DNA of 64,000 nucleotides, from the NCBI GenBank assembly GCA_037043015.1, contig CM073324.1:21902097-21966096 (forward strand), in the 5' to 3' direction. Of this stretch, positions 6,358-51,373 are shown piece by piece. The notes beneath the pieces were generated by a model. It saw nothing but the letters and a program-made list of their open reading frames with translations. It ran no database searches and was not told the origin of the DNA. This stretch comes from Bryum argenteum. Lineage: Eukaryota > Streptophyta > Bryopsida > Bryales > Bryaceae. A program made the translations under genes and the position numbers. Position 1 is the first letter of the stretch; each line of letters opens with the position of its first letter.

Positions 6358-9300
6358 ATGGCGGATTTGTTTGCGCTTTTACGCGACTTGGGAGAGCAGA
6401 TTGCTAACAAGGGCGATGGAAACGGCAGCCGGCCTCTCGACAGTGAGGCTTTAGAGGCTCGTTTTCGTTCCGTGCTGCCTTATCTTCTCGAAACCTACTT
6501 AGTTCCATTCCAAGGTACTAAATCTCATGACTCCAGAGTTGTTACTGCAAACGAACGCAGACTTTGAAAGGAGCTTCTGCAAACAGTCGCTATCATCAAA
6601 GTCATTCTTGCATTAGTCAGACAGAAGGGATATGGTAATAGATCAGGATACAGGGTTCAGGGTTTAAGGTAGTCTTTTAAAGATCAGCGTTTCAAATGCA
6701 ATCTATTCACAGAATTGATGGATATGTTGAATTGTAGTAGTGACCGCAACATTGATGGACGTCTGCGATCTCCGCACACACATTCTTAGGGTTTAGGGGC
6801 ATTGCAAAACAATTCTTGCACTTTTAAATAAATTTCTGGCTTGAGTTTGCAGTGAAGGAGCGCGAGTTCATAGCCACCTTGAAGTTCCTGTGTCACACAG
6901 TCAAGAATTATCCAGGAGTATTCTACCATGGAAACGGCTATGCAGTGTTGCCAGTCGTAGGTCGTATAGTTGCACTTTTCGCTGAACCTGAATTGAGGTA
7001 TGATGTGTGGACTTCTGCATTGCTTTCTGGAGAGTCTTAAAAGGGATGAGATGATGGTTCTTATGTTGTTTTTGAGTGATGTTCCTGGTGCATGGTGGTG
7101 CAGTGCACGACATGGAGGTCTCTTTGATGCCTTGCACGGTCTGGTCTCGCTGCTCAAATCTTGCGAGTGGGAGACTTATCGATTCTTTTTCGTCGGTGCC
7201 ATGTTTCTTGTCGAAGGTAAGAAACGAAGCATTATCTCTATTGCACACTCTTTTGTCGCAAAGCCGCTGACCTTTGGAATTTTGCAGATATTCTATCTGT
7301 GGCATCCTTCTACTCATCTCCAGCAAGCTCCACAGTCTGTACATCGGTTTCTTTGCTATGTTTTACGCGAGCATTCGCTGTCTCAGCGAAGGATACGTCG
7401 CCACCGCTATGTAAACTTCCTGCTTACTGGACCCCTCCTCAAGGCCCTGGACTCTTTGTTGACGTTACCGGGGTATCGCGGTGGCAGCCTCTAGCGAAGT
7501 GGACTCTGAAGCTGCTCACACGCTGCGTATCTGAAAGTGCGCTGCTTGTTGAGGGTCTTCTAACAACCTCTTTTTTGACGGCAGTCGGGGCTTTGATAAG
7601 CTTCGGTGACGCTCCTTTACAGAAGGTCCGTGCTAAGGCTTGCGATCCGAAATAGAACGAAGAGAAGTACCTTCTTGCATGTACTGATTTATTATGGACG
7701 CAGGTGTGCTTTGATCTGGTGCGTGCGGCCACAGCTGTGATGGATTCAGATGCCATTCCCAGCGAGAAACTCATCCTCTCCCTTCTCTCCCTCCTAACAT
7801 TCAGTGATGGTCAGCTTCCACCATACAGGTACTCTCTTACTAGGTTGTGTATGTGTTAAGCAGTATTGTTGCTCACCGTTCATTCTTGTTCGAATATACT
7901 GGTCCGTGTTTGTGATCTGGATATTCTTTTTGTTTGCCAGATCCGTGGCTTACGATGCAAGCTTGAGCGCATGTCTTGTTACTCTGTATGGCGCGAGCCA
8001 CAGTGGAACCATCGAACGCACAGCCCAAACACTGCTGGATATACTACCGCAAGCAATCAAGCATTCACCTAGCCTAGAGTTGAAAGTAGGTGGATTGATC
8101 TCTGTTCTCTCTCAATTGCTGTGTAATTTTTCCTTGCATTATGTCTGCTACGATATAATAGTTGGTAAAGGAACTTTTCTCTTACATGTGAACACATCAC
8201 TCTACATTCACATGCAGATTGGGGTCATCACCACGTTCTTTATAGATATGCTTTCAGTATACAAAGTTTAGAATTCAGAGGTGTTGTTCTCATATTGCGT
8301 GCTAAATAAGGACTCTGATGCTTCTTGCAGGTTGCTATATGCGATATCTATGCGATAGTAATTAAACGTTGCCCGTCTTATTCCAGACATGTGACAGCTC
8401 TTCTTCCATTGGCTTATGTGCCTGAAATTGTTCATAAAGTCAGTTCTTGTATACAACTTTCGATCGCCACTATTGGTGCAGGAAGCATAGATAGTAAATC
8501 AGATAGTGTGGAGGGAGAAGCTTTGGTCGAAAATATTTCAGGGGCCAAGCCGGAAGAGTCGAACGTTCTCGGCAAAGACAATGATTCTTCATCACCAGAG
8601 GTGATTTGCAACGAAGCGTTTGAAAGTGCCCGTAGGAAAAGACGGAAGCTGAGCGGCGGAAAAACAGCTGAGAAAGCAGAGAACTCACTCGTGGAGACTA
8701 CTGAAGCAGTTGAACTTCTGGAGGAGCAGTCGGTTCTAGGTGGTCATGTTCGATCAATCAATGTTCTCGTTGAGCAGGAGAGTGTCTGCTCAGCAGATTT
8801 GATCTGTAAGGAGTTACTTCAAATGATGGATACTATTGGACCGGTCCTGGACGTGCTACAGGACACCTCCGTAGAGAATAGACTAGCTGCCCTTCACGTG
8901 CTTGTTAAGGTTTTCAAAGTTCACCCTACAGAGGTTGGCATTCAGGGCTTGGTCAAGATCTTCCAAGAGTGGGTGTCATGGATCCTTCACAAGGTGAGGG
9001 AGCTCGTCGTTTATGTTATCTCGAAATTTTGCCAAGTGAACTAATTCACTAATTCTCTAACGTATTTATCCACAGAATGAAGAAGGCATTGTAGCAAGAA
9101 AGCTCCTCTTCATGTTTCTTGAAGCTTTGGATAATTTTTTGGTCAGGAATCCGGGTAAATTCTGAAACTATCTTCAAGTGATTGATGCTCTTGCTCTTCA
9201 AGTTATTTCTGGAGGTTTGCCTCTTACAATCCTAATGCAGTTGGCCAATTTGCGGACTCTGCAGAAGCGGTGGAACACAATCATCTGGAGATTTTTTGTC

Positions 9301-12300
9301 GCAATTCTGCATACAGTTCAATCTCTCTTCTTGAGGTTTTGAAACTGCCATGGACTTCAATGGAACTCAGTCAGGAAGAAGGTCTGAAAATCAACGCTGT
9401 GGCTCTAGCTTCCAAATTGGTGAGCGGCAGGGAAGGGGATTTGTATCATGAGATTGCTGAACGTGCATTGAAGGATGACAACCCACATGTACAAGCAAAT
9501 GCAGTCCTAGCTATACCTTCCTTTTCGCAGCATTCAAGCTCTTCAAAATTGCAGCAGTATTGTGCTGGACTATTGTGAGTGAATTCTCCTACTCTGGTAT
9601 AGTATTCACAGGTTGGGGGTCGAGTTGGGGATCTGTCTCGCAAACTGCTCGCACTGTGCGAATTCTTTCCTGCAAAACAAGATGAACTGTTACAAGCACT
9701 ATCTGCATGAACTAATTTTGAGTATTTGTACGTCGTAGGTCTCCTGCTGAACAGGGCTCTGTTGAGGTTCGCAAGGCAGTTGCTCAGGTTTTGGGGGTGA
9801 TGGCTTGCATCTGCAATTCATCCAACTTGAGAATGACGGGAAGTGACGAGTCACTTCTAGATCCTCATCAGTATTTGTGTCCCAAATGTGATAAAGCAAG
9901 GGCTAGTGCAGCGATAACCTCCTCAAGTAAGCAGGGAACTGATAACAGGGAGGTGATGAAGCCGGCTTTTTTGATTCTTTGGCGACCTTTATTATCCAAG
10001 CTTTCAATAGAGGAAGTATCTGATCGTGTTCAGGTTTTTATTCTGACTTCGCATCTACAATCTTATCTCATGGAAATCAATCAAATGTGTCCAGGAACTC
10101 TAGATTTGGTTTACATGTCCTACTGTGCAATTTGATTATGAGGACTTTGTCGCTCTGTTCGTCTGATAGTCTCTCTCAATTGTTTTTGTATCCTTCAGGT
10201 AGCTTTTATCAGCAGTATTTCTCGCCTCTTACAACACGCATCAGTTGAGGAACTTATTTCTACAGGGCCATTCTGGTTTTCATGTCTTCATAGTCTGCCG
10301 CTTCATAAACACAGAGCTGTGCGGGAGGCTTTTTGCAGTCAGGTGCAGTACTTTTTTTCACATCATGTTTTGCGAGGGCTGCTGCCAAGCGAAGATGTAG
10401 CAGTAAGTGATCACGATCGGGAACTTGAATTGTTAGGCAAATTTCGAGATGCGCTAGCTCAGGCTCAAAGTGTCGATACCACCCAGTCCTTGTTAGAGAC
10501 CGTTGCGGAGGTTGCAAAAGTTGCTCATGGGAGACGACATCTACTTTTCTTTTCCCTGGTTTTGCTCCTGGAGAGATTGGACCATGAGGTAGTTTCCCTT
10601 CGTGCGAAGTGCATAAGCTTGATACACAAGATTGCCTCAAATGGATTCTCAGCAACATGCGGCAGTTCATCTCAGGTATTTTTCCAGGAAGTTCTTTATA
10701 TCTGTCCCATGCTGATGTTGTGTCTTATTTTACACTTGGACAAGTAACAGGAGAATGTCAAAGTAAGAATTTCATTTCCAATAGAATACTAATTGAAGCT
10801 TTGATTTTTTGCAACGAGTGGATCTGATTTCAATGAGTAAAATGAACTTTTCATAAGTATGGCTGCAATGGGGTGGTCTTATCATGTTCCGATGGTCTTC
10901 ATTCTATTGCAAATGCATTCTGGCAGGGAATGGTGGATGCGATACGTGATGAACTTTTTGAGTACCTAGTCAGCAGGCTCGTGAGTCGACCTGCCATGGT
11001 TCAAGAATTTGCTGCATCTGTTATGCGCATCGAGTTGAAAGAACTCTTGAAACAAATGGTGCCTGTTATTCTTCCCAAGCTTGTGCAAGACCAAAAGAAC
11101 AGCCAACGGGCCTTGGATACTTTGCATGAGTTGGCCATCGTGTTGGAGACCGACTTAGCAGTCCTCCTTATCGATCATTGTCACCAGATTCTATCTGTTC
11201 TTCTACTCCAAGCTGATGGAGAGCAACTTTCTGCGGCCCTCCAGTTTATTGAGGCGCAGACAGAGGTACCCACTAGTGAAATTTTTGCGGGTGTCTTACC
11301 AGCCCTCCTCGATGAGTTGGTTCGGTTTTTAGGTGATGTCGACAACGACGATGGGCTTCGAAGGTAGAGGTCCTTGATCTTTACTTGGATGGTCTTTAGT
11401 TTCATGTTGGTAATAGAGTGATCTGTGGCCCTGGTTTGACTTCTTGTACCTAGTTCTCAATATTTTCCTTATGGCTGTTTAACCCTGACCTTGACCTTCC
11501 TGAGCAGTTCTATTCCTGGAGTGTGCACTGCTTGAGAGAGTATATATTCTAATTCTCGAATTGGGTTTCTTGTTCTCCAGGTCGGCAAGAGTTGTGCCTA
11601 TGATGCAAGAAGTAGCAAGTATCGTAACTGGTTCCGACGATCTCCCGAACTTTTTAAGACCCTATTTTGTAGGAATACTAAATAGTATCAATCGGAAGTT
11701 GTTACGATCTGCGGATGATTCTTCCCGAATCAAAGGACTCCGGTGTATTGTTCACTTGGTGGACATGATTGGACCACACTTATGTGGGTTTGTGCCGAAG
11801 ATTATGGCCTTGCTCACCCAGACCCTTCAAACACCAGCTCTGCAAGAGGAAGGATTGCGAGTGTGGTTGTCCTTTGTCCGGACCCTTGCTCGGGTAATGT
11901 CCCACGCCTATGTTAGTCTGAGCTCTTGCTCTCCCTTAACTATGTCTAGCTTCATGGCTTAAGTACTTTGAGTGCTCAAGAAAAGAGATGCTTCGATTTT
12001 TTCAGCCAATTATTTTAAGTATTGTTGATTTTCTCGAACCGGGTGATCAAGTTTATGCTGATGTATAATTGTGTGTTGTACCAGGTCTCGTCAACACACC
12101 TCAAGAACGTGGCTTGCCAGATAGTGGTTTCATTGACTCCTTGCTTGGAGGGGCAGCCAGCCCCACATCTGAATGCAGTTGTGGAGATATTAGAAGAGCT
12201 TGTGATTAAGAACCGACGGTTGTTGGAGGACCAAGTCAGAGAGCTTCCCCTTCTCCCTGGTATTCCAGCACTTGAGAAAGTTAATTCGGTACTTCACGAA

Positions 12301-15300
12301 GCTCGTGGACTACTGAGTCTTCGTGATCAACTCAGACAAGCCACTGAGGGATTACGGCACGAGAGTTTGAGTGTGCGGTACATGACGGCCAGTGAACTCA
12401 ACGTAGTTCTTTGTTCGCATCGGAAAGAAATTGCAGTGATGATGATTGGGGAGGATATGTTGGACGCAGATGTTGTAAGCCGTCTTGTTACTGCATTGAT
12501 GCGGGGTTGTGTAGAGGAGTCCCGCACATCTATGAACCAGAGGCTGAGAATGGCATGTGCGTTGTGTTTGGGGGAGCTTGGGGCAGTCGACCCTGTCAAG
12601 CTGCAGGTTAGCAATACTTTTTAAGTTTTCCAAGTCGTTTATCATTTGTCATAATATATAAGCACAGTCCTCCCGAAGATGCTGATAGTTGATACTGGAA
12701 TGGCAGGTGGATCTTCGTCGAAGATCAAGGATCGAGCGGACGGATGAGGATCTGGTTTTTGAATTGATCACTGAGCACTTGGCTCCCGTGCTCCGTGCTG
12801 CATCGGAAACTTATATTCAAGACATTGCAGCTTTCGCAATACAGGAATTGCTGAAGCTGAACGGGTGTCAAGCAGCAGTAGCTCTTAATGGTCGTCGATC
12901 AGGGACAGGAACAAATAGGAACGCTAATTCAAGGGCAGGGAGGCCGAATACAACCTTAAATGAATTTGGGGAAGCGACTGCGGCGACGATCGAAAGTGGT
13001 GAGAAGCTCTGGCAGAGGTTTCCAGATGACGTGAAGGAGATCATCACTCCATGCTTGACATCGAAGTTCCTTCTTAATACTAGTTATAATAAACCGCAAG
13101 GCGCATCGCAGGCACGTCCTATGTTTCGTCCTGGAATGCCATTCAGGCGGTGGATGTATCTCTGGATTAAAAGATTGATATCTCAAGCTTCGGGGCGAAG
13201 AGCAGAATTTTTCCGAGCCTGTGGAGGAGTCATGAAATTTGACATGGGAACAGCCTTATACCTCTTACCATACTTGGTGCTTAACGTTGTTTGCGATGGC
13301 TCAGAAGAAGATAGAGCTGGTGTTACAGGGGAGATTTTGATGGTTCTGAAAACTGGTGAGGATCTTATTTCTTTACTTCTCCCTTTCATTTGCACTTAGA
13401 CTTTCTTGGGAGTTCATGAGTCGTTGTGTAATCTCTTAGCATTTAACATGGTTGAGTTCTCTGTTTTAACGTCCATTGCAATACCCAGATGAGGAGATAA
13501 GAACTGAAGATGAAGACGGAGACGAAGAGCTCGGGAACTCTACACGCACTTTATCTGGACCAAATGAAGTCAGTACGCAAACAGTATTTACGCTGCTTGA
13601 TAATTTGGGCCAGTGGTTAGATGATTGCAAGCAGGGTGGTCTAATTGCACCAAGTCTCCCATCGGCTTCTACTACACCGAGCAAAGGCACTCGTGGAAGT
13701 GCTAAAGCAGAAGCACAGCAAGAAAGCATTCGAATTGCCCGCCGCTTAGAAAATGTCTCGCAGCTGTTAGCTGCCATTCCAAAACAATCTCTTGCAGGCG
13801 CATCGTTCCGGTGTCAGGCCTATGCTCGTGCTCTCCTGTACTTCGAATCACATGTTCGAGAGAAGTCTGGTGCTTTGAATCCTGCTGCAGAAAAGAGTGG
13901 CTGTTTCACAGATGAAGATGTTACTTTCCTTCTAGATATCTATAGTGGCTTGGAAGAACCAGACGGGCTTTCTGGGATCTCTCGTCTGAGGAAGTCCGCC
14001 ACTCTTCAGGACCAAATACTCATCAATGAAAAGGCTGGCAACTGGGGCGAGGCACTGACATGCTGTGAGCAAGCTTTGCAGATAAAACCAAGAAGTGTAA
14101 CTCGACATTTAGGGGTTCTTGACTGCCTCCTTAACATGGGACATTTGCAGGTACCAGAAAAACATCACCCTTCTTTAATCTTTCACTCTCTAGATTGTAC
14201 CTCATCTACTGTACCTTTTGGTAGTGCTGCTTAGATGTTGAAGGGAGCAATTTCGTCTCCTTTTATTCATTTACAAGGTCATTTACTTATACCTCCACTT
14301 GCAGTTCTTTGATCATTTCCTTGTTCTAAATGGGTGATACCTTGCAGGCTATGGTAACTCATGTTGATGGATTGAATTCACGGATGTCCAATCACACAAA
14401 AGAATGGAGTACAAAAGGCTTACAAGCGGCTTGGCGTCTAGGCCAGTGGGACCTTTTAGAAGAATATGTCAATAGAGCTGATGAAACTAGTTCGACAAAT
14501 TTTTCGGAAGGAATATCGTTTGATTTAAGTCTGGCAAAGATCTTGCAGGCTCTCCAGAGAAGGGACCAGGATGAGTTCACAAAACACTTATTGCACTGCA
14601 GAGAAACTCTTCTCGCACCATTGGGAGCAGCGAGCATGGAATCCTACTCCCGTGCTTATCCATATGTTGTGAAGCTACATATGCTGCAGGAGCTAGAGGA
14701 TTTCAGTGCGCTTGTTACCATTGACGCCGGAGGAACGACTAATTCTGTCGAAGGTCAGAGGAAACACCCGTACCTGAGGATGGAAGAGTTGATTGAAGAC
14801 TGGGAGAGTCGCCTCAAGATTACTCAGGTTAGCTCACCGTCACCCTCAACTTCCAGATGCCAAATTGAAGATGAAGATTATCATGTCAAATTTGTCACAA
14901 GAAATTACGGCTCCTTGACCAAGGCAGATATTACAGCTCAGATTTTAATTGATTATTCTGTGCATGTCTTTTTTGCAGCCTTCACTTTGGACGCGAGAAC
15001 CTATATTGGCATTACGTAGACTGGTATTCCATGAGACTGGCTTGCCAGATGAAGTAGGTGTCTGCTGGCTCCAGTATGCAAAATTGTGTCGGGAAGCTGG
15101 TCATTATGAAACTGCCAGCCGAGCTATATTGCAGGTACGAGCAAATTTATGTTCTTTCCGGGATGTATCTTATGACTGCACCTCCATATATTTGCTGACA
15201 CTCATCATCCTACTCGTGCAGGCCCAATCTGTGAGGGCTCCTAACGCTCACATGGAGATGGCGAAGCTGCTCTGGGACACACAGAAATGTCATCGAGCAA

Positions 15301-18300
15301 TAGGCGAACTTCAGCAAGCACTATCAAATCTTCCAGCGGAGGTTAGGGCTCATTTCTCTCTATAGATGTATCAATATTGCTGGCAGAACATTGTTAGCAT
15401 ACCTTATTTTTCCATATCTGTAAGCTTGAAAGATGATGCAGTTTTGAAGCAACGAACTCATCATGTTCTTAACGTTCGTGAAGGCTGTAAAGTTTTTCTA
15501 CCCGTTGTCTTCTTCTAAGTTTTCCCCTCGATTACAGGTATTAGGTGAAGCAGCAGGTGCAGCATTGGGCGGTCTCTTGGTCACTCAATCTGCTGTTCCA
15601 CAAGTCGCACCTGGACTAACTAAGAGCTCAGGTCGACCTTCTACTACCCAGTTACGCAGAGACAAAGAGCTTGATGCGGCCAAAATACTATTGCTTTTAG
15701 CACGCTGGGTACATCATACCGGGCAAATGCAGAAAAAGGACGTCCTCAGTCTTTATTCTCAAGTTCGTGGTCTGAAGCCTCAATGGGAGAAGGGCTACTT
15801 TTCAGTTGCCAAATACTATGACGACTTATTAGTCGATGCAAGGAGAAGGCAAGAAGAGAATCAAGATGGATCCGGCGATTCTGTCTCGGTACGTGTTACT
15901 TGTGCATGTTGACTTTAACTGGCCCTAGGCCTCTTCCTTCGCACATATAACTGCGTAGTCCCTTGATTGAGATTGTGCAGTTTCCAGTATTTTAAAACCC
16001 CTCCGAATTGTTTCAGAAAGGCAAGCAGAAGCGGCATGCTCCAGCAGATGAACCGTGGTGGTCCTATCTTCCGCATGCTCTTCTTTTCTATGCTAAAGGG
16101 CTCCATAAAGGGCATCGGTGCCTTTTTCAAGCCCTTCCACGTTTGCTGACTCTCTGGTTCGAGTTTGGAACACATTTTCGTGGAGATGCTCTGGCTACCA
16201 AACAAGTGAAGACAGTATTTGGAGGAGTACGTTCCACAGCCATTCCTACGTGTTGCAAGTATTTAAATACAAGATAATCATTATAATATGTTGTCCTGCC
16301 TGTTAGCTTGTGTCAAGACTTACTGGTTGTCTTATGGCCTTACAATCTGCCTGTTGGCTTTTAGACAATGAGCATAATGAGAGGCTGCCTCAAGGATCTT
16401 CCAGCTTATCAATGGTTGACAGCACTTTCGCAACTGGTATCAAGGATATGCCATCAGAACGAAATGCTGGTGCAGTTAGTCAAGCAAATAATCATCTATG
16501 TTCTTCAGGTGACTGTTCGAAACTACCTGGATCTATCAACTGTTTCGGCTATTGCTTCAAGCTAATCCTCGTATATATGAAGCCGTTCATACCTTCGAGT
16601 TCCCTTAATATTTCCTAGTGACCGAAGTGATCATTTCTGAATAAAGTATTTACCAATCCTTTTGTTGACAGGTATATCCTCAACAAGCCTTATGGACAAT
16701 GGCGGCAGTATCGAAGTCCACCGTAGCAGCCAGACGTGAAGCAGCAGCTGAGATAATTCAACAGGCAAAGAATGATGGTGCAACTAAGGACAAACCGTTG
16801 TTTCAGCAGTTTGCAGTGCTGATTGATCAGATGATCAAGCTGTCATTCTACTCAGGCCAGGCTAAGTCCAAGACAGTGAATATACAGTCGGAGTTTGGCG
16901 CCCTGAAACGCATGATGCCTGTGGGTGTCATCATGCCTCTTCAGAAAGCCCTGACAGTGAGTCTTCCTGCCGATGGGCTGTCGAATACCAAATACAATCC
17001 TTTTCCTGCTGGTGATTATCCGACCATTTCGGGAATCATGGATGAGGTTGAGATACTTGCCTCGCTGCAGCGACCCAAAAAGGTATGTATATAAATGCTT
17101 GCAACCATAATCTCCCGTAGCTTTCTTTGAAACATTCAGATTCTTTTTGAGCTCTATCTTGAATCTATTGTAGTATTGTAGTCGACATGTTTGCATGTGA
17201 ACCCGTCAAACTATGTAGTGATCTTTGGGCGTCCAAACTATTCGTGAACGTAGACTCTTGTTGATATTGTGGGCAATGGATGCAGGTGGTTCTGTTAGGC
17301 AGTGATGGGACTGAGCATCCCTTTTTATGTAAGCCGAAAGACGATCTGCGAAAGGATGCACGTATGATGGAGTTCACAACGATGATAAACCGGCTTCTTT
17401 CGAAAGATGCTAAGAGCAGACGACGGAAACTATATGTGCGCACCTTCGCAGTCATTCCACTCACGGAAGATTGTGGAATGATCGAGTGGGTGCTACACAC
17501 AAGAGGTTTACGGCACATATTGCAAGACATTTACGTAGCGGCAGGGAAGTTCGATCGGCAGAAAACCAACCCTCTGATAAAACGCTTGTATGATCAGCAA
17601 GGTGCGCAAGGGGAGGCAGAAGTATTCCAAAACAAAGTGCTGCCGATGTTTCCCCCAGTTTTCCACCGCTGGTTTCTTAACATGTTTCCTGAGCCTGCCG
17701 CTTGGTTTCGAGCTCGGATTGCTTACGCGCACACCACTGCCGTCTGGTCTATGGTGGGACATATCGTTGGCCTTGGAGATCGACATGGTGAAAACATTCT
17801 GTTTGATTCTACCACTGGTGACTGTGTTCACGTTGATTTCAGTTGTCTTTTTGACAAGGGGCTCTCTCTGGAGAAGCCTGAGGTCGTGCCGTTTCGTCTC
17901 ACTCAGGTTTGAGCCTCACCCATGTCGAAGTTAATTGCTTTCACCTTGACATGTCACATGGCCTTTGCTATTGGTAACAAGTTTTTTACTCAAACAGATT
18001 CTGCAGTGGCTGTATGTACTTAAGGCACTTCTGGTTATGGTTTTGCTCAACGATTTCTTAATCCTTGTTTGTTAGCAACATCTTGAACGTGTTCTAACAG
18101 GCTTGTGAACGGTGGCATTGCTTCAGAATATGGTAGATGGATTGGGTATCACGGGGTACGAAGGAGTGTTTCTTCGTGTTTGTGAGATCACGTTAAGCAT
18201 ATTGAGAGCACACCGGGAAACACTCGTCAGCGTTCTGGAGACATTCATTCACGATCCTCTTGTTGAATGGACCAAGTCACATAAGTCGAGTGGCGTTGAG

Positions 18301-19609: not shown

Positions 19610-21078
19610 ATGGATGAACGAAGGCATAAGGTTTTAGTGGCTCTTGTGTTCTTCATGGCCGTGCGACATGTTATGGCGGTTATTGCAATATTGCAAAAAC
19701 TTGCTTTGAACCAACCTTATGGTGTGATGGCGATGGTTTTTGCTATGATGGTTGTGGAGGGTAGTGCTTCTAGGAGGACACGGAGCATTTGGATGTATGA
19801 CCAAAGCAATGTTTTTGCGGACAAATTATTATTTGAAAGCTATTCGGTTCGGTTATTCAAGCAACATACAAGGTTACTTCCAGAAACTTTTGATTACCTG
19901 TGTGGCGTTTTATCTCCTTCTTTGAGACGTGAAGATACAAAATTCAAAGTAGCAATTCCTCTTAGAAACCGGGTTGCTCTTTCATTGAATAGACTTAGTA
20001 GTGGGAATTCATTACGTGGTTGTGCTGAAATATATGGCATTCATGAAAGCATCGCATCTATCACTGTTAGAGACTTTTGTGCAGCAATGGAGAAGCATTT
20101 GAAACCATTAGTAATTGAGAAATTATCTAGAAATTCTTTGTGTAGAATTGCACCCGAATTTGAGGATCTTAGGGGATTGCCTTATGTTATGGGAGCAGTT
20201 GATGGAAGCCAGATACCTATCATTGCCCCCCCTATAGATCCTACTTTGTATTATTGTAGAAAAGGTTTTTATTCGGCTCTACTTCAAGGCATAGTTGATA
20301 GCAAATGCAAGTTCTGGGATTAAGATTTTGGATGGGTTGGGCGCTGCTATGATTGGACTTTGTTCCAAAATTCAGATATTGGGGAAAGAGTGATGAAGGG
20401 TGAGTTATTACCTTATAAATCAATTGGTGATGCGGCTTATCCAATGAGGCTGTGGTTTTATTCTCCTTTCAAAGGTGAAAAGGAAGGATTACCTAGGCGC
20501 ATTGGAACTTTATTCAATCATCAACAAGAATGGCTGTAGAGAGGGCGTTTGGAACATTAAAAGGGAGGTGGAGGATTTTATTGAAGAGGATTGACATGCC
20601 TCTTCGAAATGCACCGAATGTGATTACAAGCTGCATTTGTCTTCATAATATGTGTATCATACACCAAGACAAGTTCGATGATGAATGGGCCAAGGAAGGA
20701 GAGAGGATAATGCAAACGGAAAGTAGAAATCAGCTAGGAGATTTGGGGAATTCTGATATTTTCATGGCCGCTACACAAGCTGCAAAGGAGATGAAGAGAT
20801 ATTTGAGAATGAAGGAGGTTGAAGCTGGAAATATGCTGTTTGAAGACCTTAAAGGAACCGAGGTGAATGGAAATGATGGTGTAGAAGAAGAAGAAGAATT
20901 GAGTGCTGAAATTGTAGAAACGAAGATAGACAAGGAAGCTAGGATTAAAAATATGCTTGTGCAAGCTACACAAGCTCATGGATTACTAGCTCAATCGTTT
21001 TGGAAAGCACACTTGAGGATGGAAGGAAAAGTTCTCTTCCCCCGAGACTATGATGCAACTGATTCGGAAGAGGAGTAA
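19610..21078 (+). CDS. Harbinger DDE transposase (DDE_Tnp4/HARBI1 type), disrupted
   Basis: Catalyses cut-and-paste transposition of the surrounding element. The first block (19,610-20,323) starts MDERRHKVLVALVFFMAV and contains the helix-turn-helix-like stretch SLNRLSSGNSLRGCAEIYGI and the first catalytic Asp in VMGAVDGSQIPI. A TAA stop interrupts the frame after SKCKFWD. The same frame then continues with DFGWVGRCYDWTLFQNS, where the second acidic residue lies. A +1 shift near 20,525 leads into MAVERAFGTLKGRWRILLKR, which holds the catalytic Glu, and the frame ends at 21,078. The acidic C-terminus ends DATDSEEE. One stop and one shift suggest the gene is recently inactive, although a sequencing error at either point is possible. 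It is converged upon by the Myb/SANT gene. Confidence 0.88.
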
Positions 21079-41515: not shown

Positions 41516-44039
41516 CAAAAGAAGAAGAACATCAAAACCATAAAAGTTGGCGTAAACATAGTGTTTGTTTGACCCACCCTTGATGGTATGTAAATAGGAC
41601 AAAACAAAGATGGTATAGGACTACTTCTGTTGAACACAAATATTGTAAAGGGTTTCCTTTACTGCAAGAGTAGGTAATAAAATTATCATAAACAGAGACG
41701 TGCCATAGTAACTTCTTTGCTACTCCTTATCACCCTCGAAAAGGTCAGTTACAGTTCTCTTCTATACATCTGTCTAGGGTTTAACCCTTTAAGGTCCTTG
41801 AGGAATCCGGCGGGCAATAGAAAAGGCAAGGCATTTATGAAAAGGGGACTTGGTAAAACGAGGAGGGAACCCATGATGGAATGACAATTCGATCGATTAG
41901 GCAACAACAAGAGAGAGGACCCAAGCTCCAAATCTCTTAAATTGTTGGCATTCTTGTAGATTGACGGATCATGATAACAAGATAATAAGGCAAAAGTTCT
42001 ATCGCAAGGCCGCTTGGGCTAGAATAGGCAATTAATAGGATTTAAAATAGAAGGCATAAACCGAAGCAAATGCATTTTCGGTCATGAGGGGTGGCCAGTA
42101 GACTGCTTCAACAATTCTTTTTCTATCATCAAGTCCCCCTTCGCACAAAGGAAACTATGTCTTCTATAACAATGCCAAATAGAAGTACCTTGATAGGTTT
42201 GAAACTAAGTAAATACAAGGTATTCAAAATACATGACTAGTATATGTAAACTTAGATCAATCAACCTTGCTCATGGAAATTTAATGACACTAGTGTAAAG
42301 GTGGTTTGAGCAAAGCAACATGAGATATGGCTTTAACCCCTAAATGAGAGTGATGCCCAAAACGAGATGTTTGGACTCTAATCAGTCTTGCATTACTAAA
42401 TATAGATTGTATGAAGTTGGAACTTATGAGAATTGTAAGTTTTTGTTATACCTTTCTGAAAAGTTATTTTATGCTTCAAAAATTCCTCATACATACGTTA
42501 GGAAATATTTACAATCAAAGTTTGAAAACTCTTTTTTTTTTTTTCTTTTCTTCTTCTTCAGCATGTAGAATGGGTACCTAGGCAAATTCTCACCGTTTGG
42601 AGCTTCAATTCAATATTTTTTTCACATGCCTTCCATCTAGTCAAAGTCCAGCCTTTGTATTTGAATTTTAGCATACCTCCATGTGAAAAACCAAGCTTTT
42701 CTTGAAGTTTTATAGCTCCTATGAGGGTAAAAATTATGAAGACACGTAGCTAACTCACTTAGAATTAAGGATTTGAAGCTAGACTCATTTCTAAGTTTTT
42801 TCTGAAATTGGCTTTACGGCTCACAAAACACCTTGATTCCTATTGTTACAAGGTTTTCTTTTTTTTCTTTTTTTCTTTTTTCTTTTGTCAACTTTGAACG
42901 TTACGATCTCACAAATGGCCAAGAATTTGAATCTAAGAATTTGTGTACGTTTGAAAGAACAAGTACTAGTAAGATCCCACGTTTACGCACTTCAAAACTT
43001 GTCAAAAATTGAAAAGCTGCATCTTGCATCTAAAGAGGGCGATTATAAGAGCTCTCCACAGTTTTGAGGCCACTCTCCTTCAGTGAGGTTAAAATACCAC
43101 TACAACTTTACTTTACTTGTGGCTCTACTCAAACCACCTTCCCACTTTTACTTTTACATACAAGTGCACAACACTCTAAAATAGAATGTCGTATAACCTT
43201 GAACACATAGCTTGTGGAGGTATTTTCTGAAACACTGCTGAAGTGATGACACTTTGACCAACATTTAATTATTTTTTAATAAAAAATCAACAACGTATAA
43301 GCTAAAAGATGTTTTTTTTCATGATAACGGCCTAGTCATGAAATATTAATTCCTCCATTGAACTATAAAAAGGCATTCAACGCGGAAGTCAGACTTATTC
43401 CCCACATGTAGGGGGGGGCCGCACTGGGAGTCCAGTTGAGTTGAGTTGAAGTTAGCTAGTTGAGTTTTTCAACTATTGGTTGAAAGTTTTCAATCGAATC
43501 AGAGGCCGCACTAGCGATTGAGTTCAAAAAATCCAGTTGAAGATTTTCAACCGAACTTGGATTGTTTTTCAAATCGTAGGCCGACAGAAATCCGGTTGAA
43601 AATAAAGCAATGGATGAGACTTCATAATTCATCAACACATCCTCTTTCTTTCCATTCAACTTATTGAATTATTTTTACACAAATTAGGTATTTAATATTA
43701 TTTCACATAAATTGGATAATTGTGACACAATTTTTTTCTTTTGCCTTATTCCATAGTAATCGACGTAAGTTCAAATGTTTGGACACAATTTACATTATTT
43801 TGATATAAATTACTTCAAGACATATTGGACTATTTCAACACAAATTAGAGTATTAAGATAAAAAATAATAATTATTATTATTATTTAACCCTCAAAAAAT
43901 TTAATAATTAGCCCTCAAAAACTTATTATTTACTCCTCAAAAAATATGTCATTTAGCCCTAAAAAAACTTGTCACTTAGGCCTCAATAAATAAATTATTT
44001 AGCCCTCAAAAAATTAATTATTTAGCGCTGAAGAATTTT

Positions 44040-44178
44040 TTAAAGTTTAGGCCCTTAATTGAAAATGTACAAAAAGGTTCAAAACAAAATTTGAATGACA
44101 GAGTTATGGCTCTTCAAAGTTAAGGCCCTTCATTCATAGTGTACAAAAAAAAAAACATTTGGAATGTTTAGGGGTTAG
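44040..44178 (-). mobile_element. TTAA element fragment (copy F)
   Basis: Read on the minus strand, the terminus CCCCTAAACATTCC next to CTAA (TTAG on the plus strand) leads into ATGAAGGGCC and CTTTGAAGAGCCATAACT, the first ~100 bp of the TTAA family. The rest is missing. Confidence 0.55.
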
Positions 44179-44689
44179 ATTATATTGAGTTAGTAAGACA
44201 TATGTATGTCTCTTGAGATATATACAAGTTCATACTAGATGAAATTCAGTACTTGGAATTAATTAAGAAAAATAAATCACAACCCTTTATTCAAAAACAA
44301 AAATGAACACAATCCTTGAACCTTTAGAGATCATTGAAAATGACAAGTACATAATCCTTAAGATGAGATCTAAAATGCTATTTTTTTTTTAATCATCACT
44401 ACGTTTCTCTTTCACGGAATTTGCAATTGTAGCCGATTGTGCTAAACTATTGACAACAAATCAAGATATCATCTAGTCAAGCGCTCCGTGTCGATTGTTT
44501 CTTTCTTGATCAAGAGTGAGACGTCCGCGTTCCGGATCCAACATGCTTTGACGGGCTTGTGACTCCTCCCGATATCTTTTTCTTGATTTGTAAGCATTGT
44601 CTGCCGAAAATCTGATTGTGCTGCAAGATTATCGTTCAAGAGTTGGTCTCTTACCTTTAACTGGTATAAAGTGTCTTCTACTTCTCGAT

Positions 44690-45364
44690 CTACCTTTTTG
44701 AGACGCCCGCTGGAACCTTCATTGTGGGCTTTTCTTTTCTAGTCGTCTCTCTATCTTTTGAAGTTTCTTCTACTTCAATTTCCTCACGCGCGCCTTCTAC
44801 GTCCATCCCACCACGTGTTGCATCTTCATCTTTTTTGATCAATGAATCAATCGTTGGTATATTACCAATAAATTTTCCAGATTTTCCGAACCAACTATTC
44901 ATATTGTCGTACATTGTTTGATCCATCGTTGCGGGTAGTTTTGCTTTCTTCCGATCTTCTCTATTCAACACCCATGGATTACCACCTCCTGATGTCTTCT
45001 CAATATAATTCTTGTATGCTCTAAAATCCTTAATCAAATTATCCCATTTATGACATAATTTATCCATATCAAGTTCCGCACTTCCAAATAAAGGTTTTTC
45101 TTGCAGATATTTAAAAAAAAATTTCCACTTGGACTCTCTAGACTTAAAAGATGTCTTTTTACCTTTACTTTCTTCTTTGAACTCCTCTTCTTTCAACTCA
45201 ATCAATGCGAGTGCTTGGGCTTTACTCCATATAAATCTTTTCTTTTTCCCTTTGACGTCTGGTTCAATTTGAGTATTCCCTCCCTCTTCTTGAGACTCCT
45301 CTGCTTCATCTTCTAATTTAATATCTCTCTCCCCCTCAAGACTCATGGTATCTAAGTAATCCAT
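44690..45364 (-). CDS. Myb/SANT (trihelix-like) protein of the large Harbinger element
   Basis: Likely DNA-binding partner of the transposase. The start at MDYLDTMSLEGERDIKLEDE (45,364) is preferred to the upstream in-frame Met at 45,403 because the extra 13 residues are hydrophobic and atypical. After an acidic leader comes the trihelix/SANT domain: KKRFIWSKAQALALIELKEE, then ESKWKFFFKYLQEKPLFG, then LCHKWDNLIKDFRAYKNYIE. The tail is rich in Glu and Lys. The frame stops at VPAGVSKR, but a different frame immediately beyond reads KVDREVEDTLYQLKVRDQLL, typical of the C-terminal coiled coil of this family. Either a one-base shift or an unseen splice has removed the tail. It is transcribed away from the protease gene, with about 1.5 kb between them. 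Confidence 0.78.
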   Translation of the reverse strand: MDYLDTMSLEGERDIKLEDEAEESQEEGGNTQIEPDVKGKKKRFIWSKAQALALIELKEEEFKEESKGKKTSFKSRESKWKFFFKYLQEKPLFGSAELDMDKLCHKWDNLIKDFRAYKNYIEKTSGGGNPWVLNREDRKKAKLPATMDQTMYDNMNSWFGKSGKFIGNIPTIDSLIKKDEDATRGGMDVEGAREEIEVEETSKDRETTRKEKPTMKVPAGVSKR

Positions 45365-45879
45365 AATAATGGAAAGAATCCAACAAAAGTATATTCGCAC
45401 CACGATTAAAATGATCTATAGTAACTCTCACTTATGAGGATTCAATAAAAAATCATATTAGTTTAAACATCAATATACTTGTATATATAAATCATTTTGG
45501 AACCGACTTTTACTTATACACATTTATTGTATCTTTTAATTTCATTGAAAATAAACTATTACTCTAATTAATAATAAAATCACATTTATATATTTTGACC
45601 CTTCTTGCTTTTATCGTGTTACAACCGTTCCTAAAATTAATGTACCTTTTTCACATTTGATATTTATACCAAAACTTACATATTTTCATTACTTACACTG
45701 GACAAGGTACTTCCAATAATATGAAATAAGTAAAAAAAACACATATAAATAAATGCTTACAATAAATTTTGGTAGTTCCAAATATGTGATAAAATTAATA
45801 TAGATTAAGCTAACAGTAAAGAAAAAATGCCATAGTTCACTATTTAATAATTACTTGTAATTTATAACCTACGTTCAAC

Positions 45880-46367
45880 ACGTCTTTGATTAGGTTAAGG
45901 ATTCTACCACTAAAACTAGACTACTAATGGAATCCATCCCAAAAAAATAAAGTAAAAATCTAACGGTTTGTATGGGAGATCTACATCCTCAGAAATCATA
46001 CATTTTTTCCATTTTTTCATTGTACAAACCTCATTGCAAATCAAATATTAAAGTTAATTTAATAAAAAAAACTTATAACTAGAAAGTAGTTATGATGCAT
46101 CTAATGATCTTACTCTTGTAAAAAATTTATATTAAAAAAAATTGATTTCGTATAATTAGGTTGGAATGGTTAAATATGCCCTGTGTTTGGAATCCCAAAA
46201 GGAAAAGTTGCCTTCACTACAATGCTTGCCATTAAGTCATACTTCCTTTTATAGGTCTGCGATCTTGAATACACAAATTAGATTTGATGATGAAAATATG
46301 GGTCTTCAATGTTTTTGTTTTTCATCCAAAATGTCGTTTTTTGAAACTACCGGCATACAGGGGTTAA
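45880..46367 (-). mobile_element. TTAA element fragment (copy G)
   Basis: The right end CAGGGG followed by TTAA (46,364-46,367), the minus-strand ACATTTTGGATGAA and the conserved block ACTAGACTAC...AATCCATCCCAAA mark about half of a TTAA-family element. Its other end is lost near 45,880. It lies between the Myb/SANT and Ulp1 genes of the large Harbinger element, so it entered after that element was assembled or was already in its ancestor. Confidence 0.6.
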
Positions 46368-46860
46368 GGGTTAAGGGTTAAGATATGTTTTCCTATACGG
46401 TATTCCTCTTTGGATGTAAAGAGCTTAACTTTCACAATGATAACACTCACTTGACTTTAGTGAATATATTTATTTTGGTTTAAAAAAGCGCTACTTGAAC
46501 AATGATAACACTCACTGAACTATAATGAATTGATCTACTTTGAATTTAAAAATCTCAACTTTACATATGATAACACTCACTTAAGTTTACCACTTTATAT
46601 TTTATTATAGATATAGATTATATTATTACATAGTTGATATAAATATAGCCAAGGATATTGTAAAATTGACTAGTTTCTTTCATTATTTTCCTTACAAGAC
46701 TTGTACATTTCATATTTTTAATAGGGAATTTTGCACTTTCGAATTCAATTAAGTAAATGGTGATTTTGAGGTACCCCATTTATGAGAGTTTTGATATTAT
46801 CGTCTTCCATATTTTAAAGATTTGCAAATATTTTCTTCTAATATAACACTTCTTTTCTCC

Positions 46861-48392
46861 ATGGCTTCAACATCTGATCCTGTTGTTGTATCATATTACA
46901 ATTATATGTATAGTGATGGCATGGACATTAGGGGTGCAGATATTGACAGGTTGCAACCCTGCGTATACCTAAACGATATTCTAATTGATTTCTATATTAG
47001 GTAAGTTTTTTTTTTTCTTTTTTCAGTAAGTTTTTTTTAATGGTAATTGAAATGACACGTACAGTCATACCAGATGTTAAACTAACAATTTTGTCGATTT
47101 TTTGTAGATATTTGCATGTGAGGATTCCATCACCGAACAAATTTTTTTGTTTCACTTGCTTTTTCTTCACCAAACTCATGCAAGTCGTACAAGGATATTC
47201 CACTTTTGAATCTCTGTCTAGATGGACTCGTGGAGTAAATTTACTCGAAAAAGAGTATATTTTTATACCAATTAATAAAAGGTACATATTTAAAAAACCT
47301 TTTACTTTTTGTAGAATTTACCTTTTTAATTTACATTCTTATCTTACTTTAAGAAATTGATGTTCACATCTTTTAATTTTATTGTAACTAATTTTGTAAT
47401 TTATTCTTGTAGTGAACATTGGAGTCTTATCATCATTAGTCATCTTGGCCTCATTGGAAACGGTAGAGGTAAGTTTCAATTACGATTCAAATCAAATGTG
47501 CTTCAAATCAAAGTAGTTTGAATGATGTAAATATATAGAAGTGATTAAATTCATACATTTTCTCAAATTGTGCTCTAATTGTGCAGAAACAACAACGATG
47601 TTGGTGAAACATGCATCTTGCATTTGAATTCTTACGAAAATTCACACACTTGGACATAGAAGATCCAATTCGGAAGTATGTATATTGAATATCATTTAAT
47701 TTGGATATTGGTTATTTATATTAAAGCCATAGATACTACATTGTCTTTGACTTGTTTGAAACTCCTTCTTAACTAACCAATGCATGGAACATTACACTGC
47801 AGATTCATTTTTCACTACTTACAAAGCCAACAATCATTGGAAAGTGATTTGTTACAGGAGGCAATTGCAAACATAAAATACGAAAATATTGAGGTACGTT
47901 GCACACTGTACATTACTCAAATAAAAATACATGGTATATACTTGTGAGTAATTATTTGTACACCTGCTTATACATTGAACTGTAATGATATTAGGTGCCT
48001 CAGCAGACAAACGGTTATGATTGTGGATTATTTCTTCTCCATTATGTTGAATTATTTCTTCAATCGGCACCTTCGAAGTTCAAGTTGAACGATTCTTGTG
48101 GATATGAAAATTTTGTAAGCATACACTAAACACAACTTATATCATTTTGTATTACTTTAAAATAATTGTATGTACTGTAACTAAGAGCAGTGATTAGTGC
48201 AAAACAACTTTGATTATTATTTTTATTCTACAGTTTTATACTAATGCATAAGTATTTTGTTAAAAATTTACCGCAGCTTACCAAAAACTGGTTTCTAGTA
48301 TCTGATGTTCAAAATAAGCGAAATAAAATACGAGATATTATATTTGCGCTAAGCAATCATGGAGAAACTGAAGAATACGTTGTTGGTGAAGG
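46861..48392 (+). CDS. Ulp1/SENP-type cysteine protease (C48), multi-exon, inside the Harbinger element
   Basis: Family members cut SUMO or related ubiquitin-like tags from proteins. Exons by eye: 46,861-47,000, 47,108-47,281, 47,413-47,468, about 47,587-47,678, about 47,808-47,893, about 48,000-48,114 and about 48,277-48,391. Exon 1 (MASTSDPVVVSYYNYMYSDG) leads to CVYLNDILIDFYIR, the Ulp1 substrate-cleft motif. Exon 2 has LSRWTRGVNLLEKEYIFIPI. Exon 3 has SEHWSLIIISHLG with the catalytic His. A later exon has VPQQTNGYDCGLFLLHYVEL with the oxyanion Gln and catalytic Cys. The usual ILHLDS motif, with the catalytic Asp, reads ILHLNS in exon 4. The frame of exon 4 does not join its neighbours cleanly, so a small frame error or a different splice is likely there. 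The last exon ends YVVGEG, whose phase matches the transposase exon. Confidence 0.8.
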
Positions 48393-48588
48393 TATGTTCT
48401 TTATTTATAAATAATGGTTGTTTATGAATGTTTAGTTTCTTTTATTATTTAAAGTTTGATATAAAATGAGGATTTGATATGTGATGTTAGTTCCATGTAT
48501 TAAGGACGTATAAAAATTTATAATTATAAAATTATTTGGATTACATACAATTAGATAATTACTTCAATTTTATTGCTCTGGTGTACAG

Positions 48589-50121
48589 GCCATCAGGTTG
48601 AAATGGAGCCCTTGGGAAATATGGAACACCGTCCAGAAAATATTCTTGAAGAAGTCAGAATGAGATATGGAGCTCACAACATGTTGGAAAACGAAATGGA
48701 TATTGAAGACGAAATAAATTTGATGCCTTTGTCTTCTGAAAAAAAACAAAATATGGAGGCAATGTTGTCATCAATGATATTTGTACTAACAATGCTATTG
48801 GTTGAAATAGTACAACTTGGAGGACAACATTATGAACCTAGGACAAACATTTTGTATATCATTAACATCTTTTACCATCATGCCCGGAATATATACAACC
48901 CTATTATTGATATCAATCTTGAAGATAATGTAGCATATATTATTATGCAATACACTCAAGTTTTGTGTATTTTAAAAAGGTTTATGCTTGATTTGACAAA
49001 TCGGTGGTATGTCATGCCCCGATGTATGACGTGGTTTTCTACTTTTTTGATGGAAGAATACCCTTCCCATTTATGGTTTGATATTCTACATTGCAGAAAG
49101 AAAACATTTCTGAAATTATGTGATGAGCTCAGAGATGGTTTGAAAAAAAAACCACCAATTGGAGAACGCCAATTGCGATTGAAAAAAGGGTTCTTTGTTG
49201 CATTGTTTAAATTAACAAGTGGATCCTCCATAAATCTAGTCTCTCATCTTTTTGAATTGGACGATCAACAGTTTATGAAATATTAAAAGATTTTGTGAAA
49301 ATTGTAAATAAGAGACTATCATACAAATTGGAGTGGCCTCGATTGGATAAATTAAAACGTATTGCAATTGAATTTCAAGGCAAAAAGGATTAGCTCACGC
49401 CCTTGGGGCATTGGATGGTACACATGTACATATTAATCCACCTCCCGATCGTTGCGTCGAGAAGATTACATCAACAAAAAAGTTTTGTAGTTTGATTATG
49501 CAAGCTATAGTTGATAATGAGTGTTGTTTCACTTATATACATGCCGGACTCCCGGGATGCAATCATGACTCATCACATTTTCAACAAACCGAATTCTATA
49601 AATTGGATAGAGATGGAAAAATTCGTGGATTAAATAATAAGCCTCACGATTTTATTCCGTGTTGATATAAAACCCTATATCATTGCGATACAAGGCTTAT
49701 CCTTTAGCACCATGGCTTATAACACCATTTAAAGCAAGCCCCGCTATGGAATTAACAGATAATTACAAAATGTTTAATACACATCATAGCTCAACAAGGG
49801 TCGTTGTAGAACGCGCTTTTGGAATTTTCAAAGCAAGATTCAAGGAAATGGATAACAAAACAAAATTGAGGGTGGGTTTTGTACCGGATGTTATTAAGTG
49901 TTGTGCGATCTTTGCATAACTATTTGATTCAAAGCAAAGATAAAACATTATCAGAAATTTTGGAATATTTACAAATTCCTAATGATTTTCAAGCAGAAGG
50001 AGTTCTTTTTGGAGATGAAGTGAACGACCCAAATGAAGAACATAGGTTCAGTGCCCGATTCAATAGGGAAGCCATTATGGACTACATTATATATACGGTA
50101 GAAATTGATAGATTTACCTAA
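48589..50121 (+). CDS. Harbinger DDE transposase, downstream of and possibly fused to Ulp1
   Basis: The exon opens after a TGTACAG acceptor with HQVEMEPLGNMEHRPENILE and runs without a stop into a Harbinger transposase: KKQNMEAMLSSMIFVLTML, then NRWYVMPRCMTWFSTFLMEE, then KTFLKLCDELRDGLKKKPPI. The block ends after FELDDQQFMKY at 49,286, where the frame shifts. Next come ALGALDGTHVHINPPPDRC, with the first catalytic Asp, and GCNHDSSHFQQTEFYKL, with the second (HDS). A TGA after HDFIPC and a further shift precede MRYKAYPLAPWLITPF and VVVERAFGIFKARF, with the catalytic Glu. The frame also shifts before the end block LHNYLIQSKDKTLSEILEYL, which stops at 50,121. The element is therefore no longer autonomous. 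A separate start at the Met in QNMEAM (about 48,750) is the alternative to fusion. Confidence 0.75.
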
Positions 50122-51373
50122 ATCTTGCATTATCATACTACTTGTAGAATCGCATTTATATGTGAACAAAGGGAACACTCCAACTATGTGAAATCTACTA
50201 TAGATTTTTCTAATATTTTTGCATAAGTATGATTTTATAATAATCTCCAACGACTTCGTTGTTGAATTTTTTTATCTTAAAATTTTCGTAGGTTCATTTT
50301 CAAAAATTACCGTTAAAAAACTCTAAAATTGGATTTTGACTTTGCAATTTTTGCACATACACCTTGTAATATAGGGAGCACTCAACAAAAATCTTAGTCA
50401 AAAATATGAATTTTAACCTAAAACCTAGGCTACCCAAACAACAAAAGACCGTTTTGGTTTTTAAGGAAAGTTTAGATTTGAATAGCTTACTTTTGTTTTC
50501 ACTAATAACACTTCAATCACAAATGAGTTAGTTTCAAAAATTTCAAACCACATTTATGACCATAATTCCCTTGTACTAGTATTGTTAATATATCAATAAT
50601 ACAAAATTTACTAATACAAATATAATGAATACATATTTTATAATATGTAATAGAATATTTTTATATTAATAATTTAATAGTATAATAATATTTAATGGTA
50701 TAATAATATTTTATAATATAATAATGTAATAATATTTATTAATTTTTATTAATAATATGATCAGTGGTGAGGTGAGGTGACCGAATAATAACTGGGGTGA
50801 GAGTATTGGTACTCTGGTACCTCAAGCCCCCTAGTTTATTAAGCACCAATTTCTAGTAATTGCAATACAGTAAAGGGAAAAAAATGGATGATGATCAAAT
50901 TAACATCCAATTCATGGAAGCCCTCTAAAAAATGAAACTCAATGGTGGGTCGGGGCACCATTGAGTTTCGTTGAGATTCATAGTGTTAAATCTCAACTAT
51001 GTTATTATTAGGTGTGGGGGACAAGGTTGAGAAATTTTCTTCTCTGTGGGACCACAGTTGAGAAATTTTCTCACAGTTGAAATGAGCCTCCCTGTGCGGC
51101 CCCCAGTTGAAAAAAATCTCAACTAAAAAGTGCCCATTTTTCAACTGAATGGCCCTGTGCGGCCCCCCCCCCGTAGTCAACCGAACCACCACTGAAATAA
51201 CCAGTTCAAAGGAGGTGCTAGTGTGAACGGATTATCAACGTGTTGGTTTTTCATGACAGAATCTGTCGTTGACTGTGACGAAATTTCGTTCGTCCGTGGA
51301 TGAAAAAGTGTATAGATCCTTACTACGCGTTGACTATAATTGGATGAATGTGCGACTTTGGTTATTCCATTCA

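Follow-up and report, generated by a model that had tools for sequence, protein, structure and literature searches.

How does a SUMO-protease-like domain come to lie inside a Harbinger-type transposon, and what could it do there? The question is raised by a 64,000-nucleotide stretch of Bryum argenteum DNA (GCA_037043015.1, contig CM073324.1, positions 21,902,097 to 21,966,096, forward strand), the whole of which is called the window here. An earlier note, made from this sequence alone, had proposed that positions 43411-51172 form a Harbinger-like transposon with a captured Ulp1 protease beside Myb/SANT and DDE transposase genes. The present analysis supports a Harbinger-type element of the PHIS superfamily that has taken up a Ulp-family gene as part of its mobile unit. 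The captured domain is of ULP2 type, has Asn in place of the catalytic Asp, and may be made with the transposase as one spliced protein. Feature coordinates are collected in Table 1.

Table 1. Features of the element, in window coordinates
Feature	Position	Strand	Basis
Whole element, 7762 bp	43411..51172	+	direct reading; at least 30 paired genome copies
GTA direct repeats flanking the element	43408-43410 and 51173-51175		direct reading
Left terminal inverted repeat, ~18 bp	43411..43428	+	alignment of both ends
Right terminal inverted repeat	51153..51172	-	alignment of both ends
Left subterminal zone, six AGTTGA repeats (both strands)	43411..43660		motif count
Right subterminal zone, six AGTTGA repeats (both strands)	50923..51172		motif count
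Myb/SANT-like gene	44389..45364 (approximate)	-	limits transferred from the L040 frame
Ulp exon 1	46861..47000	+	intron check, GT..AG
Ulp exon 2	47108..47281	+	intron check, GT..AG
Ulp exon 3, starts within the catalytic-His motif SEHWS	47413..47468	+	
Ulp exon 4, Asn at the catalytic Asp position (LHLNS); frameshifted in the window	47587..47675	+	
Ulp exon 5	47803..47893	+	
Ulp exon 6, with the Gln and Cys of the active site (PQQTNGYDCG)	47995..48114	+	
Ulp exon 7, end of ULP2 homology	48277..48391	+	
AT-rich GT..AG intron, 197 bp; splicing it out puts the transposase in frame with Ulp	48392..48588	+	
Exon 8, DDE_Tnp_4 transposase, first ATG at 48603; frameshifted in the window	48589..50121	+	

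The proposed limits, with inverted G-rich ends and flanking GTA, were borne out by direct reading, by alignment of the two ends and by at least 30 genome copies. The left end reads GGGGGGGGCCGCACTGGG and the right end, as its reverse complement, GGGGGGGGGGCCGCACAGGG; the G-rich terminal inverted repeats (TIRs) pair over ~18 bp. The motif AGTTGA occurs six times in each terminal 250 bp and five times across the 7262 bp between, and its subterminal copies are putative protein-binding sites. A genome search with the terminal 250-bp zones returned at least 30 left-end and at least 30 right-end matches at 93-100% identity. These pair by coordinates into at least 30 elements of ~1.07-8.67 kb, the window copy included, and the pairing is far beyond chance.

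The pairs taken for study comprise the window, 20 others taken whole (L039-L058) and the flanks alone of the remaining nine; two of the 30 were excluded from the flank analysis, as automatic parsing of their ends failed. Matching 3-bp flanks are present in 25 of the 28 readable copies, all except L041, L057 and L058, as compared to 5.1 on average, and never more than 14, when the flanks of either side were permuted among copies. Runs of G and C blur the boundary by 1-2 bases in some copies, which the matching rule tolerates. Under the same rule, 4-bp matches occur in 20/28 copies (shuffled mean 2.5) and 2-bp matches in 15/28; the duplication is taken as 3 bp because this length yields the highest match count.

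The Ulp gene lies within this mobile unit. A 222-residue query from the N-terminal half of the transposase finds five loci at 85% or above: the window, L039, L040, L041 and L051. The first four are full-length copies (7762, 7768, 8139 and 8668 bp, respectively), so that the genome search proposed in the earlier note yields three further elements that agree with the window copy in both ends and coding regions. They are colinear at ~98%, with insertions relative to the window copy of ~0.37 kb in L040 and ~0.93 kb in L041, and each carries the Ulp gene. L051 is a deletion derivative that lacks Myb and Ulp and keeps a 429-aa transposase frame. Across positions 46861-50121, the window copy differs from L039-L041 in clusters of small substitutions and indels that often break frames; these may be assembly errors in repeats. 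Such clusters resemble assembly noise, as would be expected if a host Ulp gene had come by chance to lie within a composite of two elements through an artefact of assembly or insertion. This explanation is judged refuted and vanishingly improbable, as identical order and junctions recur in four copies, each on a different chromosome, and three of these copies show clear duplications.

Among the 92 separate transposase-matching loci listed, most of them weaker matches from other Harbinger families, Ulp lies within 1.3 kb only in the four full-length copies. One further Ulp match within 20 kb, 8.6 kb from its transposase at C5:18.877-18.886 Mb (L080), is judged unrelated and was not counted as a second Ulp-Harbinger pair. 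There, a Myb-like reading frame identified by eye lies 3' of the transposase and the Ulp remnant several kb beyond; the exclusion is a matter of judgement.

By its transposase, its 3-bp duplications and its likely gene content, the element belongs to the PHIS superfamily. DDE_Tnp_4 matches the L051 transposase at 1.2e-29 (103.4 bits; cut-off 24.8), in place of the mudrA-type transposase of Ulp-bearing (KIU) Mutator-like elements (MULEs), and both L041 (324 aa) and L051 have an open frame over its catalytic part. The duplications rarely follow the target sites of the named PHIS groups, TWA or ANT/CWG/TNA, as given in PMC4482050. TWA accounts for one of the 25 duplications, ANT, CWG and TNA for 4, 0 and 1, and 22 have A or T as their middle base. 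For the three coding units proposed earlier, Pfam gives DDE_Tnp_4, Peptidase_C48 and a weak Myb/SANT match. The Myb/SANT-like frame scores below the curated cut-offs (Myb_DNA-bind_4, 23.0 bits against 27; Myb_DNA-bind_3, 22.3 against 23.6). It is open over 335 aa in L040 and L041, and is frameshifted in the window into open stop-to-stop pieces at 44690-45415 and 44469-44738.

The closest transposase relative is P0048, a JGI metagenome protein (58%; joint support 99/98). A search for relatives of P0048 found none among viral contigs, and 15 pattern-matching stretches among genome contigs, none of which was confirmed. Next comes L059, a locus of the Bryum genome itself (46% across 327 aa; support 98/94), followed by animal and metagenome proteins. 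The element's Myb frame matches the Myb-like frame beside this transposase at 6e-11. L059 (G000:C7:1910800-1918200) holds a Harbinger-type transposase (346-aa frame) and a Myb-like gene (455-aa frame) in convergent orientation. It is the only locus of its kind among the transposase matches listed, has no clear TIR in the examined stretch, and is a candidate for a domesticated transposase/Myb pair.

The Ulp gene contains SEHWS and QQTNGYDCG as the earlier note had read them, and its seven exons yield a full C48 domain (Peptidase_C48, 3.8e-19; 2.3e-22 for the L040-type reading) in a 261-aa frame that is open in L040 and L041. All seven introns, counting that before the transposase exon, are GT..AG in window coordinates. 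The top protease matches are plant ULP2-type proteins, at 34-39% identity in the best four; with the composite of Ulp and transposase as query, the best ULP2-type protein scores 154 bits at 35%, against 64 bits for a ULP1A protein. When the query is limited to the Ulp part, a Genlisea protein comes first, at 35%. The database search relies on shared 5-residue words, so closer Ulp relatives may have been missed. Matches in the PDB include SENP2, SENP7 and yeast Ulp2. These similarities place the element protease with the ULP2 type, and the earlier proposal of Ulp1 capture thus stands as to a Ulp-family gene inside the element and fails as to its type, which differs from that of the Ulp in KIU MULEs.

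The origin of the domain can be sought among host genes. In the Ulp tree, the element sequence falls outside the flowering-plant ULP2B clade with no sister resolved, and its nearest rows by path are the same-genome genes L072 and L076. The ULP2B-like L072 lies outside a clade of 12 flowering-plant rows (support 97/99); its own placement is weakly supported (81/28), and it fills 48% of the columns. The element Ulp is 49% identical to the host paralog L076 over 149 columns, and two intron positions are common to both: one separating PIN from HWS (phase 2) and one just before VPQQ. These common sites suggest that genomic DNA, and not cDNA, was captured. L068 and L069 were considered as recent donors and rejected, since 37% and 33% identity to the element Ulp is insufficient. 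These two are dispersed ULP2-like genes, 81.6% alike over ~1.29 kb with nothing else in common in 9.9 kb. At L069/L079 (C1:35.29 Mb) the catalytic Cys motif reads CKFG, and the paralog L068 retains CDCG. Elsewhere, a 305-aa frame resembling an IS1595/Merlin-type transposase by eye (L078:1182-2096) lies ~3 kb ahead of a ULP2-like gene.

The active site departs from the family at one position. Catalytic His, Gln and Cys are retained, and the catalytic Asp is replaced by Asn (AAT) in all four full-length copies, so that the Cys-His-Asp site of ULP2-type C48 peptidases is incomplete. Alignment with SENP2 sets this Asn opposite the YLDS motif, whose Asp we take to be the catalytic one. In papain, Asn acts as the third catalytic residue. 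Asp occupies the position in 62 of 62 aligned homologs, that is, in every Ulp database match, and in L068, L069, L071, L072, L076 and L077, the six of ten own-genome Ulp or neighbouring loci in which the stretch was read. The replacement means that a de-SUMOylating enzyme, as first proposed, cannot be assumed. Such an active enzyme could free the element from SUMO-linked silencing or process its proteins; the C48 domain with its three retained residues would suit this role, and an anti-silencing action is already known from VANC genes of Vandal MULEs, among which some bear Ulp1 (PMC13317346, a review). Given the uniform Asn against an invariant Asp, and given that MOM1 silencing in Arabidopsis works without SUMO (PMC10338684), we consider an active de-SUMOylase very improbable.

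The Ulp gene and the transposase just downstream of it may form one spliced gene. The donor at the end of exon 7 reads GAAG|GTATGT, and TGTACAG|GCCATCAG is the acceptor that follows. Three copies (window, L040 and L041) stay in frame when exons 7 and 8 are joined; in L039 a frameshift falls inside exon 7. The intron so removed is 79% AT, in line with the other six (101-162 bp, 70-81% AT), and without splicing the Ulp frame would end after about seven further codons. A terminator and a promoter have little room between the two coding regions. These features make it rather more likely than not that Ulp and transposase are produced as one spliced fusion protein. TATAAAAT lies at 48460 within the intron, 143 bp upstream of the transposase ATG, and makes separate Ulp and transposase genes possible.

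Taken together, these observations suggest a route to the present element. An ancestral PHIS cut-and-paste element would have taken up, introns included, the catalytic domain of a SUMO protease of ULP2 type from its host and set it just upstream of the transposase. Its divergence from other ULP2 sequences would then reflect long residence in the element, with a single spliced Ulp2-transposase protein as the most likely product. There, the domain could bind SUMO itself, or partners modified with it, at the transposase or at its target chromatin, trimming them slowly or merely holding them. SUMO engagement of this kind would aid transposition, as suggested for the Ulp1 of Ginger and Mutator transposases; for the former, a role of Ulp1 in transposition, for example via repair factors, is raised in the Ginger paper (PMC2836005). 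On balance we lean towards such an accessory, SUMO-engaging Ulp2 domain made together with the transposase. A bolder version, in which the Asp-to-Asn change made a SUMO reader out of an eraser, so that the fused transposase is tethered to SUMO-marked chromatin or repair foci, is distinctly improbable.

Several observations, in addition to the TATAAAAT site, weigh against the preferred reading. The Asp-to-Asn change is as compatible with decay as with altered use. No full-length copy (0/4) has all three genes intact as assembled, and in the window Myb, Ulp and transposase are each frameshifted. The ~98% likeness of the four full copies reflects one recent burst and gives no independent sign of selection. 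L059 has its Myb-like neighbour and no Ulp within the 7.4 kb examined; the Ulp was thus gained after the L059 split, or lost in L059. At face value, the 26 of 30 paired copies (among the matches listed) that are shorter and have no Ulp match also count here, and consistent absence of Ulp from copies with the same TIRs had been named as grounds for rejecting the capture. These copies are short, and all four full-length ones carry Ulp.

Alignment of nine of the 26 shorter copies clarifies what they represent. One is the deletion derivative L051; L042, L043 and L045 retain Myb sequence and have lost Ulp and transposase; L044 keeps one Myb piece and one transposase piece; and L046, L047, L048 and L050 retain less. 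No Ulp-less locus with complete Myb and transposase genes was seen among the nine. As transposase, Myb or both are wholly or partly missing from all nine as well, they are not evidence for an older Ulp-less autonomous element. The junction 45850/50512 is common to L042, L043 and L045 and, with the predominance of short copies, suggests that non-autonomous forms amplified as such. L042 and L043 also share a ~2.9-kb insertion at the same site of the Myb region, with flanking matches that overlap by 12 bases.

The same observations bear on passenger capture, in which the Ulp2 segment was transduplicated, brings no benefit and is decaying, with Asp-to-Asn as the first lesion. The uniform loss of the active-site Asp, the short Ulp-less copies and the Ulp-less sister locus L059 would all follow, and passenger fragments of host origin have been reported, a PIF family of grapevine being one case (PMC2528002). 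Against this, the 261-aa frame is open across seven exons in two copies, with splice sites and His, Gln and Cys kept. No relative closer than 34-39% in the database or 49% to L076 was found, and neutral sequence of that age should hold stops. The latter argument counts unless the donor was itself a diverged gene, as it may have been, which would equally weaken the case for long residence. Passenger capture is therefore a serious contender that we nevertheless hold to be unlikely, and the accessory Ulp2 domain remains our preferred reading.

Two other features of the window were identified by eye from open reading frames. A fragment of another Harbinger-type transposase (SSTRMAVERAFGTLKGRW) lies at 20497-21075, and a multi-exon gene resembling an ATR-type kinase spans ~8319-17909.

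Ulp domains have been found before in mobile DNA: in MULE and CACTA elements (PMC2528002), in Ginger1 and Mutator (PMC2836005), in Cryptons (PMC3212892), and in Utopia and NeSL (PMC4640811). The literature search found no report of Ulp in a Harbinger (PHIS) element; Repbase and most subscription journals lay outside its scope, and an earlier record may exist. The known carriers, namely MULE, CACTA, Ginger, Crypton and some non-LTR elements, belong to different superfamilies. A further capture, of ULP2 type and in the Harbinger superfamily, points to an advantage that mobile elements have repeatedly drawn from SUMO-engaging domains, and the Asp-to-Asn site offers a direct handle on whether the activity sought is cleavage or SUMO binding alone.

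Among its own relatives, the element resembles PIF/Harbinger, Pangu, NuwaI and NuwaII in its DDE_Tnp_4 transposase, separate putative Myb/SANT-like gene, short G-starting TIRs and 3-bp duplications. It differs from them in its ULP2-type domain, perhaps fused to the transposase, and from the named PHIS groups in duplications that generally fit none of TWA, ANT, CWG and TNA. PHISTA (TET/JBP) and HarbingerS (SET) are likewise Harbinger relatives that bear an additional chromatin-mark enzyme; there, the extra gene encodes a dioxygenase or a histone methyltransferase, and the hosts are fungi and oomycetes (PMC12730594).

Outside the superfamily, Kaonashi/KIU (Vandal) MULEs and the plant Ulp1-bearing MULEs and CACTAs also combine a DNA transposon with a host-derived C48 domain. 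Their transposases belong to other superfamilies. The C48 domains borne by Arabidopsis MULEs are reportedly further from ULPs than DEN1 is (PMC6117577), whereas the Ulp described here is ULP2-like. Ginger1 offers a precedent for a fusion, as some families hold a Ulp1 domain inside the transposase protein. In that case, the transposase resembles a Gypsy integrase, Ulp1 is C-terminal, and the tabled families come from animals (PMC2836005). Finally, the element Ulp shares with ULP2/SPF1/SPF2 the whole catalytic domain and, as judged from the host paralog L076, two intron sites. It is without the long flanks seen in the ULP2B proteins found, has Asn for the catalytic Asp and resides inside a transposon.

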